A stretch of DNA of 64,000 bases from Punctularia strigosozonata HHB-11173 SS5. Its lineage: Eukaryota; Basidiomycota; Agaricomycetes; Corticiales; Punctulariaceae. The notes beneath the pieces are model-generated. The model had not been told where the DNA came from and ran no database searches. It was given only the letters and a program-made list of their open reading frames with translations. The translations under genes were made by a program, and so were the position numbers. Position 1 is the stretch's first letter. The number at the start of each line of letters is the position of its first letter. The stretch lies in contig NW_006767440.1 of assembly GCF_000264995.1 (NCBI RefSeq), positions 333,844-397,843 of the forward strand. Reading direction: 5' to 3'. Below are positions 47,458 through 62,383 of this stretch, in pieces.

Positions 47458-50400
47458 TTACGACGGCGTGCCCTTGTTGAATCCGGGGAACGTCCAGTCT
47501 GCCGGGATTTCGAGGTAAGGGTGTTTCCTGAGTTCCGAGGCAGGGGGCCGCTCGTTCGGATCGCTGCGAGAACGGCCGATGAGCGCACGTTGAGAAAGCG
47601 CTGAATGCACACGTACATCTTGAAACATTTCAGGCGGAAGTCTTCCGCAAGGGTAGAGAGGACGACGTCTGAGGGGACCGGAGGACAGCTGTTGCTGTCT
47701 TTGGAACCGAGCTAGAGAGGGCAAATTGATCATATATATCAGCTGCCATGTCGGCCTTCGGCACGCAACCGCGACGTCGCACCTTCATGAGCGCAGCGTA
47801 CATCTGCTCGTCGGACCACGGCCTTCGCCCGGACCACATCTCGAGCACCAAACACCCGACGCTCCAGATGTCGATCTTCGTCGTGTACCGCTGGCCGTCG
47901 ACCTGCACCACCTCCGGTGCCATCCAATACAGCGTCCCGCGCAGCGCCGTCGCGGGCGAGTCCGAGTGCGTCCGCTTCGACGTCCCAAAGTCGGAGATCT
48001 TGCAGATACCGTCCTGGTCCACGAGGATGTTGTCCGCTTTGACGTCCTGTCGGGGTGGCTCATGGTTACGGCCCATCCTGGAGTACAGATAGGTGTATGT
48101 ATGCGCACCCGATGTATGATCCCTTGACCATGGAGGTATTCCAGCCCGCTCAACACCTGACCAGCGAAAGACTTCGTAGTGTTCTAATCGGGATAAATCA
48201 GCTAACGGCCGTCATCACCTGAGGATCCAACCGCGCACTTCGGGAAATCTACCGTACGTTCTTAAGGCGCTACCGATGGAACCGCCCGGCACGTATTCAA
48301 GAAATCTGTACGCCACTAGTCAGAGAATTCGCGGCCAGACCCATAGTTATCACCCACATGCTCAGAAAGTCGGGAGTCTCTTCGAATCCAAGATACTCGA
48401 CAATGTGTGGATGGTGAAGATCTTTCAGCGTGTCGCTTTCGAGTTTCAGCGCATCCATGATAGCGATCTGTCGCGAGTCGTCCTGGTCGGCGGCCGTCCG
48501 GGGCCGCTCTACCTGCTTGACGGCGATAACCTCCCCGGTGGTCGCGTTCATCGCAAGATACACACGACCGAACGTGCCCTTTCCGATTAGCTCTCCCCTG
48601 ATCCACTTGAATACGGCTGTAGTCAGATACGCGGTCAGCGGACACTCTGCATCGAGGCGCGTTCACGCACGTTTCGCGCTGGTGAGCGGGGTCGTGAGTT
48701 CGTCACGATCCGTAGGGGAGCTTACGGGTGCGACCTCCTGCACTTTGCTGCCCCACAGCTTCGTGGTCCGCCGTTGTGCCTTCTTCGTGGACGAAGACGT
48801 TGACTGCTTGCGCTCGAACGCACCGTCGAGCTTGCGCTTCCGCTCGGCGGCGACCACGCGGATGGACTTGCGCTGGCGGAATTTGGTCGTCGGCGTGACG
48901 GGCCGCGGGGGCGCCTCCGAGATGGGCGAGGCGCCGCCGGCCATCGGCTCGATGACAGGCTCGTCGAGGTTGTGTTTGGGGAAGAAGGCGTCGAGGCGGG
49001 CGTAAACGTCGTCCATCGCGGGCCTGGAGTGGCGCATCAACTCCGGGGTGACCGGGGAGGCGTCGTGACTGCGGCCACCGGATGACGGCGGTGGAAGTGA
49101 AGGGAGCTGTTTCACAGACGAAGGATCAGCTGGGGGATTCCGTGGTCGCGGGAAGACGGTGTCGTCGATGACGAGAGGCGTCAGTGGCAGGCCACGACGA
49201 GGTGTTTCCGGTTCCACAGGGGCCTGTCCGGTATCAACAGGTCGCTTGGAGTAGTCATCGGTCCTTGCCGCTGCCCTCTGCGTGCTCTTCGATGTACCCG
49301 TTGCGTTTGCCTGCGCCAACGCAGTGTCAATGTGCATGTAAGTGCGCCCTGCTTTGGACGGTGGAGTCGCAGACTCTCCCCTCATATCCAGATCGCTCTC
49401 CATGGTCGGAGAGCGTACCATGATCCTCGGGGCTAACGACATCATCGAGGTCTTTGACTTCAAAGGTGAGAATGGTAACGCCGACGCCAGGTTTCTCGAC
49501 GCCGCCACGCTGTTCGCGCCCTGCGCCGCGTCGGCGGTGTCGGCCCGGCGATGATGACTCTTGCCGGACGACAGCTTGGGGTCTTGGTCTGCCGCACGAT
49601 GCGACAGCAGGCTCTCCATGCTCCGCGCCCCCGCCCTCCGTCCAAAACTGGATGACGAAAACGGCGTACTCGAACCGGGCGAGTTGAGCAAGTCGGCCGA
49701 GGAATCCGCTCTTCGACCCAGATGCGCGCGGTAAGGGCTTGAACGCGAGCTGTCTTTGGCTGCGCTGGAGTCCTGGTGATAGTCGCTCCATCCCTTTCCA
49801 GAGCGGCGTAGCGTTAAACCATGTTCCCTGACGGGATTGTCTCGCTCCGTGTGACATATACTCAGCAGCTGCGCGTCCGTCAACGGTCCCTGCGGCGGTG
49901 CGCCATACAGAGACTGGCCGGGCTTATCCCAGTATATGCCCCACCCGTCGATCGTCAGTCCATCACCCTCAGACTGCACCGGGTCCGCGTGTATCACTCC
50001 GTCTCCGCCTCGAGGCTGCACGAGGGTGCCCAGTTTCTTGACAGCGGCTTCGAGAACTTGGACACCGGTCGTGAATTGGTGCACGTTTATCGTAGTCTCT
50101 CGGCTCCCGTCGGGGAGAGCGATTTTGAGAAGCTTTCCGCGAAGCTCTTCATAAGTCGGTTTCCTCAGGGGAGGAGTTCGAGTCTGGGCGAGCACTATGG
50201 CAGAACTCCCCTGAGGTGGGCGTCGGGGGGAGAGCGGCGCCACCACCTCGAGATGCGCAGGGAGCCTCGGTGGCGCGGGCTCGGTGAGGTCCCAAGATCG
50301 CGTCCCCGCGGCAGCTAGCTGAGCTATGGTCGGCCGTCGGGAGAAGTCTTGCTCCCAGCAGACCTGAACGGTCGTCCACAGCGCTTCGGGGATCTCCACC

Positions 50401-52056
50401 CCCCTGCAATCCTCCCTCGTAGGTCGTGCAGGCCTGTCGGCGTCTATGACGCGCAGGGCAACCGCAGTATCCTTCATGTCTGCGAACGGCGGCCGTAAGG
50501 TGTAGAGCTGGATGTATGATGCATTAAGAGATGGATCAGAGTGGCGGCGCAAAAGACACCTACCTCCAAAACAAGAAAAGCCAGGGCGTAGATATCCGTA
50601 GGTTTCGTGGGTCGACAGTGCGGCAGACCAAACTTCTCCGGAGCATGCAATTCCGGGGCCATGTATCTTGCAGTGCCGGAAGGAAAAGAATTTCTGGTGT
50701 TGGTCTCTACTGCCAGGAGGGCGAGACCGAAGTCTCCTAGGCGGGCACGACCATCGGAGTCGATCAGGATATTGGGCTGCAAGGACCAGTTACACTTATG
50801 GAAACTTTGAAGCGAAGGTGTAAAGACTGACCCCACGCAGGTCACCATGGACAACGTCAACGGAATCATGGAGGTATACTAGGCCTGCGATGATTTGCCG
50901 CAGCTTCATCCGGGCGTTAGCGAATCGCGGAGGTATGTATGAACAATGGGACGAACCAGATTTTCGATGAGAGTGCTGGAAGGTTCCTGGCGATTAAGGT
51001 ATTCTATAATATTGCCGTTGGGCATCCATGGCGATACGAGAGCAATCGCCTCTGGAAAGGTCCGCCCATCGACACCATAGAAGGGCAAGACATGCGGATG
51101 ACTCAGGTACCTCCAGAGCAACGCTTCCCGAAGAAATTCCTGTCGATACGACGCGATGAGCAAAATGCTACTTCAGCGAATGACAGCGAACCGAACTAAC
51201 CTTCAGCTCCTTGTCTCGCGAGGAGAGGTACATCCTCATGCGCTTGAGCGCAATCACTTCGTCCCGGTATCTGCCCCGGTATACGTCCGCGAAACCACCC
51301 CACCTGATGGGTTCTCGATTCTCGAGCGTGACTCCATCTAGGGCCATAGATATGGGAAGCTTGCCTGATGACTTCGATATTCTGACAGAGAGCCTCAGAA
51401 GCGCTTGTTTGAAGGAATCGGGGTCATCAGCCGGTGTCACTGGTGAGTCATCTGATTGATCGCGCGTTTCTGGTTTGAAGAGCAAGAACTAAACGTGCTA
51501 TCAGTTGAGGTGATCCGTAGACAAGGTAGTTCAGGCTCACGTTGTGAATCAGGTCTAATAATTTCTGCGCATCCTCTCCCTGAAGCGAAGCGCATTGCGA
51601 TTTGCATCGGCTACACGAAACCAGCTTCGAGAATAGACCTCGAATGGCGGCTTCATCCTGACACTCTGCTTCCCGGAAGTCGTCTTCAGCAACACCTAGA
51701 TTGCTAGCAACCTGAATTGAGATATGAGTAACGTGTTTGCCTGGTTGCGTCAGCATGGATCGCACCTCATGTAATCGAATACGATGGTCATAACTTCGAA
51801 TGAGGCTGCCTATGATGTCGCTGGGTGGCGTATCCCGAAGTAAGGAACGGAGGTCGCGGAGAGGGGAGGAAGAGCTGATGTCTGAGAGGTTTCCCGAATG
51901 GCTCCCGGCATAACTTAACAAATAATCGTACAGGTTCTGCGAACGGGAGCTAAGCGTTGTGAGAACAGATCTCAGAAAGATGTGCAGACCGGATACAAGG
52001 TGGTCGCAAGCGTCAACTTCTCCTCTGACCGGGTACCGCTGATCTCGCCGGCTTGC
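47458..52056 (-). CDS. Dual-kinase protein: TKL-like kinase fused to Ras-binding region and STE11/BCK1-type MAPKKK
   Basis: Kinase 1 (about 51.4-50.3 kb): ENREPIRWGGFADVYRGRY (Gly loop), VIALKRMRM (lysine), VVHGDLRG/PNILID (HGD in place of HRD), LGDFGLA, TARYMAPEL, TDIYALAFLVLE, LYTLRPPFAD, VCWEQDFSRRPTIAQL. The same exon runs on through a proline-rich linker into a Ras-binding-like region (YEELRGKLLKIALPDGS...TTGVQVLEAAVKKLG...EHGLTLRR, about 50153-49803) and a long Ser/Pro-rich stretch. Kinase 2 (about 48.6-47.5 kb): WIRGELIGKGTFGRVYLA, VIAVKQVE, FLEYVPGGSIGSALR, IIHRDVKADNIL, ISDFGTSK, GTLYWMAPEVV, WSVGCLVLEMWSGRRPW, ending HPYLEIPADWTFPGF. Kinase 2 looks like a MAPKKK of the cell-wall-integrity or pheromone pathway. 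The 5' end is unresolved: coding sequence is clear to about 52056, beyond which the frame closes. Confidence 0.8.
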
Positions 52057-61136: not shown

Positions 61137-61331
61137 TCCGAGACTGACTGAGGATATAGGTTATGAGTTTTGGTTATACAATTGATTGTCTTCGGGACTA
61201 CGGGCGCGAGGAGGTGATCATTAGGGAACGTTAGGATGGCCCAAATCAGTTGGGAAGGTGAAGCAGATGCGCCTGAAAATAGCGCCCAGTGCGAAGGCGC
61301 GAATTTCCTCTTTCAGACTTTGCGACCCGCG

Positions 61332-62383
61332 ATGATTCCTGCTGTCCACTCATGTCGGAGGCGCGCCGCCGGTGAGCTCAACGTGTCTGCTCACATTCCG
61401 ACGAGAACTCATAGGCCAGCTGCAGCGTCCTGTCTGTCGCGTTCGTTCGCGACGGTGGTCGAAAACACGCAGGCCGTCCACTCCCGACCGTCCGCTAACC
61501 CCCCGGACGACGCGACCCGGAAACGCAACCCGCGCCCGCTCATCAACGCCGCCGTCATCGTGAACCGCTCGCCGATTATCACCCGCTCGCCGACGACATT
61601 CGAGCGCGCCTACTATGCCTACCAGCAGCGCATCCAGCGCGCGCTGCACAACCCCTTCCCGTCCGAGTTTTACTTCAAGCAGGGCTCGCCGCTCGAGGCC
61701 AAGTTCAACATGGAGGAGCGCGAACGCGAGGAGCGGGCGTTTGGGAAGGGATACGGCAAACACAGGGCCGGAGAAGAGAGCGACGCGGCCAAGGAGGCGA
61801 GCGCAGTGGAAATGACGAAGGAGTTTGAAGAAGAGGTGCAGGAGGCGGGGAGGAAGAATCGGGCGGACTACAAGAAGGACACGAAGAGCCTGGATCGTGC
61901 CGGCCAGCGCAACCTCTACCTTCTGCTGCTGAAGAAGGAGCAAGAGCGACACAACTGGGTGTTCCCCCAAAGGAGGATAGAGAAGGGCGAGCTGCTGCAC
62001 CAGGCAAGTACCCTATATGTGCCACCCTTTCATCAAGGTCCTTACAACTGTCTCCAGGCTGCAGAACGGGGTTTGTATCAAGAATGCGGCTCGAAGATGG
62101 ACTCGTGGATCGTCAGCCGCAACCCTATAGGGGTGTATGAACCCGCATCTTCACCATCCGAGAGTGCTTCCAAGGTTCGAACATAGATACCCTCGTACGA
62201 ACTGCACATCTGACATCATATCAGGAATATACCTTCTTCTACAAGGCTCACATCTTCGCCGGCCAGGCTGTTACTGACAGCACGAGTATTTCAGACTTCG
62301 CATGGCTGACGAAAGAAGAAATTGCGGATCGCGTGCAGAAGGAGTACTGGGATGGCGTCAAGGATATGCTTTCTGACTTCTAG
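61332..62383 (+). CDS. Mitochondrial large-subunit ribosomal protein mL46 (yeast MRPL17 family)
   Basis: A NUDIX-fold protein of the mitochondrial large ribosomal subunit. The ATG at 61332 gives an arginine/alanine-rich mitochondrial presequence (MIPAVHSCRRRAAGEL...CLSRSFATV). The body shows INAAVIVNRSPIITRSPTTFERAYYAYQQRI, LNLYLLLLKKE-type sequence (RNLYLLLLKKEQ), WVFPQRRIEKGELLHQ spliced to AAERGLYQECG, WIVSRNPIGVY, then YTFFYKAHIFAGQ and DFAWLTKEEIADRVQKEYW, with TAG at 62381-62383. An in-frame ATG at 61236 would add 32 residues that do not look like a presequence. Two introns are needed near 62005-62060 and 62175-62224. Confidence 0.9.

Follow-up and report, generated by a model that had tools for sequence, protein, structure and literature searches.

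The window analysed here, a stretch of 64,000 nucleotides (nt) from Punctularia strigosozonata HHB-11173 SS5 (contig NW_006767440.1, hereafter C8, positions 333844-397843; genome of 33.6 Mb in 32 contigs), carries on its minus strand what is best read from its sequence as a single gene joining a tyrosine kinase-like (TKL) kinase to a mitogen-activated protein kinase kinase kinase (MAPKKK). The gene model was obtained by reading the minus strand in three frames and splicing it by hand at GT-AG sites. It comprises 13 exons between window positions 51936 and 47458, stop-free across both kinases, and 12 GT-AG introns of 52-71 nt each. It encodes first a TKL kinase and a linker of 53 residues, then a Ras-binding domain, and after a disordered stretch the catalytic domain of a MAPKKK. 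The model protein has 1266 residues without its start, and Pfam recognized two kinase domains in it, the families Pkinase and PK_Tyr_Ser-Thr matching two stretches each. Since the intron ends were picked by hand, their dinucleotides are not independent evidence for the model; the narrow range of intron sizes and the homology that runs unbroken across the junctions are. A reading of the locus made earlier from the letters alone (the sequence-only reading) had extended the gene to near 52056, where there is merely an open frame, the first modelled exon beginning near 51936.

The two kinases are joined within exon 7. The sequence-only reading had placed a stop-free exon at about 50510 to 48680, and there is in fact an open stretch of 708 codons (50789-48663), of which the model uses 50507-48671. 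As had been described, this exon begins with residues of the TKL C-lobe (LYTLRPPFADMKDTAVAL...), which ends at RRPTIAQL near 50313, and after a linker of 53 codons (70% GC) enters the Ras-binding domain, the three parts sharing one frame; the MAPKKK catalytic domain was likewise found where expected, at 48.6-47.5 kb. The linker contains four GT dinucleotides, the best of which has a donor score of 1.9 against 3.7-9.2 (leave-one-out) for the 12 donors of the model. By its codon score the linker looks moderately coding: the value in the read frame is 0.075, which 24% of 242 coding windows do not exceed, while it was reached by 5.8% of 484 off-frame windows and by one of 78 flanking noncoding window-frames. 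The sole in-frame ATG of exon 7 ahead of the Ras-binding domain is that at 50477 (MKDTAVAL, within the TKL C-lobe) and the next one, at 49619, lies past this domain, so no methionine occurs between them, as previously noted. Conservation of the Ras-binding domain with a STE11-like gene described below argues for its translation, and translation from 49619 alone would leave the domain unexplained.

A separate start for the MAPKKK was sought in two ways. Eight ATGs occur on the same strand between 50600 and 49750, one of them (50477) in frame. The others were rejected, five giving open reading frames (ORFs) of 2-21 codons and those at 49857 and 49791 giving ORFs of 176 and 154 codons that are out of frame. 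When starts with one intron were built (intron of 45-120 nt, donor score of at least 2, acceptor score of at least -3.1), ten combinations of ATG, donor and acceptor arrived in frame at the Ras-binding domain, with starts at 50869, 50848, 50662, 50524 or 50477. All ten begin in TKL sequence and retain C-lobe residues; no clean separate MAPKKK start was thus found among them, in agreement with the earlier remark that none was obvious. The case for the junction is built on the one frame common to its parts, on the weakness of the linker donors, on the codon score and on this lack of a clean separate start. The positions of the features are collected in Table 1.

Table 1. Parts of the TKL-MAPKKK gene, in positions of the window
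Feature	Position	Strand	Basis
Exons 1-2, N-terminal region of the TKL part	51541..51936	-	hand splice model
TKL kinase catalytic domain, exons 3-7	50313..51341	-	splice model, Pfam, solved relatives by sequence
Linker, 53 codons, open, without Met, connecting the TKL C-lobe to the Ras-binding domain	50154..50312	-	
Exon 7, 1837 nt, common to TKL C-lobe, linker, Ras-binding domain and disordered region	48671..50507	-	
Ras-binding domain, Byr2/STE11 type (PF14847)	49803..50126	-	Pfam; alignment to STE11-like gene
Juxtakinase segment common to BCK1-like gene	48728..49031	-	genome search and alignment
MAPKKK catalytic domain, exons 8-13, stop codon at end	47458..48616	-	splice model, Pfam, solved relatives

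The Ras-binding domain, given to Pfam by itself, matched PF14847 (Ras_bdg_2) with 31.9 bits, above the cut-off of 27. It scored 31.5 bits in a scan of the genome and 26.2 bits, just below the cut-off, when the whole 1266-residue model was used. The genome also has a STE11-like gene on contig C9 (1082890 to about 1086557) with a SAM domain (58 bits), a Ras-binding region and kinase exons, and its Ras-binding region is identical to the domain of the window gene in 53 of 133 columns (40%, E 4e-28). The genome scan with PF14847 (2 candidates) returned the window gene only. It overlooked the C9 gene, in which an intron splits the Ras-binding region and the first half of that region reached only 19.6 bits, below the cut-off, and for this reason we do not claim from the scan that the window gene is unique. 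When window positions 50159-49782 are compared with this region (locus L053), the STE11-like intron falls close to a point at which the window copy is uninterrupted and carries additional residues. The window copy looks as if the intron had been lost or partly turned into coding sequence.

Searching the genome with the linker, the Ras-binding domain and the disordered region gave four places: the window gene itself, BCK1-like genes on C1 and C8 (through the juxtakinase part) and the STE11-like gene on C9 (through the Ras-binding part). No meaningful alignment was obtained between the Ras-binding domain and the N-terminal 138 residues of the C1 BCK1-like exon (best E 0.97). No SAM domain appeared among the 11 Pfam families found at E 0.5 for the model, whose true N-terminus is left out. 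The predicted structure of the Ras-binding domain alone had a mean predicted local distance difference test score of 45.4, too low for a structure search, and by sequence the domain matched no solved structure (best E 0.25) and nothing in NCBIfam; of 81 pattern matches in a prokaryote contig collection none was confirmed.

The catalytic domain has a different affinity. The BCK1-like gene on C1 (2907312-2909153 and upstream) consists of an N-terminal open exon of 967 codons, for which no Pfam match was found at E 1, followed by kinase exons. Over about 215 residues, the last exons being left out, the window kinase is identical to the C1 kinase in 152 of 219 residues (69%) and to the C9 STE11-like kinase in 112 of 211 (53%), and the juxtakinase segment agrees with C1 in 56 of 102 aligned residues. 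Kinase and juxtakinase segment are both of the BCK1 kind, and the kinase is not closest to STE11; the long BCK1 N-terminus has no counterpart here, the C1 gene being matched only at query residues 311-522. The names BCK1-like and STE11-like are ones that we assume from domain content and the character of these sequences, for BCK1 not from a named reference. Among solved structures the best relative of the MAPKKK domain is the human-type MAP3K2 (chain 9p6a, 195.7 bits); in a viral contig collection four pattern matches to part of the domain were obtained and none was confirmed. Compared by eye, five of the six introns of the kinase region appear to lie at the same places as in C1, the one after RFPE being found only in the window copy, and the common positions speak for duplication of a BCK1-type gene at the DNA level rather than for a retrocopy.

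Judged by these alignments the gene is a mosaic, with a STE11-like Ras-binding domain and a BCK1-like juxtakinase segment and kinase, which suggests that domains were exchanged between MAPKKKs of the STE11 and BCK1 types. The label STE11/BCK1-type given by the sequence-only reading conceals this mosaic, the first type applying to the Ras-binding domain and the second to the juxtakinase segment and kinase. That reading had also proposed that a TKL kinase replaced the usual N-terminus and had advised looking for normal STE11 and BCK1 genes elsewhere. Both kinds are present, the STE11-like gene still with its SAM domain, Ras-binding region and kinase exons and the BCK1-like gene with its long N-terminal exon, so that the core genes have kept their N-termini and the window gene is an extra MAPKKK. 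The observation of a TKL kinase in front of a MAPKKK is confirmed, with fusion in one gene as the best reading, and its interpretation is partly supported; the fusion reading frame is well-formed and more intricate than first described.

Two further MAPKKK-like loci were noticed. The kinase of one (L052, C8:1503947-1505419) is identical to that of the C1 BCK1-like gene in 168 of 220 residues, and the kinase of the other (L054, C13:647207-647946) in 108 of 218. Both read DFA rather than DFG and may therefore be pseudokinases, and the C8 copy seems to be without the long BCK1-type N-terminus.

The TKL part shows by eye the motifs IALK, HGDLRGPN, DFGLA and APE, as befits a catalytic domain of the TKL/TK type, and in the splice model the catalytic Lys, Glu and Asp and the DFG are kept in both kinases. 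The usual Ser/Thr catalytic motif is HRDLKxxN, the Lys of which is missing from HGDLRGPN; as far as the motif goes, the specificity may be for Ser/Thr or for Tyr. Solved relatives found by sequence include TNNI3K, CTR1, RIPK2 and ABL, and NCBIfam gave kinase matches far below cut-off only. We take the domain to be of the agaricomycete type. TKL-type stretches similar to it are many in the genome, the matches listed being a lower bound; among these the top-scoring one (C4:261855-263029) is only 36-49% identical by exon, a caveat to the intactness of the TKL part.

After removal of repeat rows (L032/L057, L046/L060 and L033/L037/L056) and of one spurious partial row (L044, query 39-57), 15 distinct paralogue C-lobes were available, all unspliced. 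Thirteen reach a stop within 13-253 codons, and the remaining two are still open where the piece used ends, after 310 codons or more, so that long C-terminal tails are not rare in the TKL family. The Ras-binding query had no match near these C-lobes, its four places genome-wide being those given above. At L044 (C1, about 104317-105105) a TKL C-lobe is followed by at least 310 open codons that look repeat-like, and TPR-like by eye, which makes it a candidate TKL fusion.

The surroundings of the gene are unremarkable. The window has 14 open stretches of at least 280 codons, of which 10 were run against Pfam and six matched above cut-off: SPT16 (20951), CNOT1 (31654), a HOOK-like protein (36607), an IPP transferase (42599), an alpha-amylase (44377) and MRP-L46 (61218). 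These matches, at 20951-45318 and 61218-62186, place the fused gene in an ordinary, gene-rich region.

Several observations weigh against a single intact gene. No start exon for the TKL part was found, neither with an ATG, a donor score of at least 3.5 and an intron of 44-109 nt nor with a donor score of at least 0 and an intron of 42-159 nt. An in-frame ATG at 51756 falls within the modelled intron 1 (54 nt, stop-free), so that either intron 1 is retained and translation begins at this ATG, or the first exon lies further up. The missing start leaves the junction untouched and bears on whether the TKL part is fully intact. As to the linker, 40% of its shuffles (7989 of 20000) keep a given frame free of stops, and one of its two other sense frames is likewise open; for these reasons its openness by itself says little. 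Its codon margin is modest, frame +2 scoring 0.04; the 242 coding windows were drawn from the 35 training ORFs themselves; and of 16 sliding windows along exon 7, the read frame outscores both other sense frames in 14 and is beaten in two. Seven combinations with one intron (donor score of at least 1.5) lead the TKL frame to a stop. Four of them start from donors inside the C-lobe, where 50487 (3.5) and 50363 (4.0) could serve, and the other three from the weak donor in the linker, 50246. Joined to the acceptor at 50163 (5.1), this donor would remove an intron of 83 nt and the TKL protein would end just after a complete C-lobe; judged from such sites, a TKL-only isoform made through weak alternative splicing is conceivable.

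The same sites would serve two tandem genes, an arrangement that we regard as rather unlikely. The MAPKKK would then have its own transcript, beginning inside the last TKL exons, and its translation would start at an ATG that lies in TKL sequence, for example the one at 50477, its protein carrying only the tail of the TKL C-lobe, and the TKL message would be ended by polyadenylation or by the weak linker splice. In favour, the in-frame ATG at 50477 is preceded by a G at -3, the TKL part would gain a stop of its own through the splice from 50246 to 50163, and there are some starts with one intron inside TKL sequence. Polycistronic transcripts have moreover been reported for up to 8% of the transcribed genes in four mushroom-forming species of Agaricomycetes (PMC4503453), and the genes contained in them are described there as also transcribed on their own. 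The polycistronic units in that report, however, have stops in all frames between their ORFs, and at the present junction the read frame contains no stop; the only linker donor yielding a stop scores below all 12 donors of the model, and every MAPKKK start that could be built carries C-lobe residues. The absence of a start exon in both searches and the HGDLRGPN motif could instead mean that the MAPKKK merely draws its promoter and an N-terminal tail from a TKL part that is itself a pseudokinase or a gene in decay, but with its catalytic residues present by eye and its seven exons stop-free we find this improbable. Most improbable of all is an assembly or base error that removed a linker stop or an intergenic region between two genes, since the frame stays coding-like through the linker and the MAPKKK in addition lacks a clean start, two features that a single wrong base would not explain together.

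We therefore keep to the fusion. The gene probably encodes one protein with two kinase domains, some 1270 residues long, that acts as a MAPKKK. As far as can be judged from the model, an agaricomycete-type TKL kinase is followed in it by the Ras-binding domain of STE11 type, by a disordered region that includes the juxtakinase segment of BCK1 type, and finally by the MAPKKK domain, likewise of BCK1 type. If it is made from a single transcript and both kinases are active, the likeliest mechanism would be that the Ras-binding domain recruits the protein to an activated small GTPase. The tethered TKL part would then activate the MAPKKK, either in cis or between the members of a dimer, through phosphorylation of the disordered region or of the activation loop, and the active MAPKKK would feed a module of a MAPK kinase and a MAPK as its target. 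An upstream kinase and its target may thus lie in one chain, as the sequence-only reading had it, though the order might also be the reverse, with the MAPKKK phosphorylating the TKL part. It is a tentative suggestion that the gene forms a self-contained two-step module in which the TKL kinase would switch on the MAPKKK of the same chain under a Ras-type GTPase. Were this true, the expanded agaricomycete TKL family would be tied directly to MAPK signalling. Such a fusion hints that some mushroom TKL kinases act upstream of MAPK cascades, and offers a single construct on which such action could be tested.

Compared with known systems, the gene resembles the BCK1-type MAPKKK of the cell wall integrity cascade in its kinase, juxtakinase segment and intron places, whereas the C1 BCK1-like gene differs in its long N-terminal exon, the start of which is unlike the Ras-binding domain. 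With the STE11/Byr2 type it has the Ras-binding domain in common, the C9 gene differing in its SAM domain, in the intron of its Ras-binding region and in its less similar kinase. It shares a TKL-type catalytic domain with the agaricomycete TKL kinases; near the 15 paralogue C-lobes of this genome the Ras-binding query had no match. An expansion of TKL kinases has been reported in Laccaria (PMC2838846) and in the FslK lineage (PMC3937382), and some mushroom-forming fungi are described as having many of them, with no pathway assigned there (PMC2838846, PMC3937382, PMC5030230). The Wolfiporia kinome is given as having one STE11 orthologue, one BCK1 orthologue and ten TKLs, and the main text of that paper does not use the terms "fusion" or "two kinase domains" (PMC5030230); nor do "fusion" or "two kinase" occur in the main texts of the FslK paper and of the comparative fungal kinome (PMC3937382, PMC2838846). 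A TKL-MAPKKK fusion did not appear in the titles and abstract beginnings of the open-access matches listed, which is not proof of absence. Two kinase domains in one chain are found in the animal RSK, and to our knowledge neither RSK nor the wheat protein Lr9 joins a TKL kinase to a MAPKKK. Lr9 likewise holds two kinase domains in one chain, its partners being a kinase, a possible pseudokinase and vWA domains, and it is described as an example that a tandem-kinase fusion can be functional (PMC10260399).

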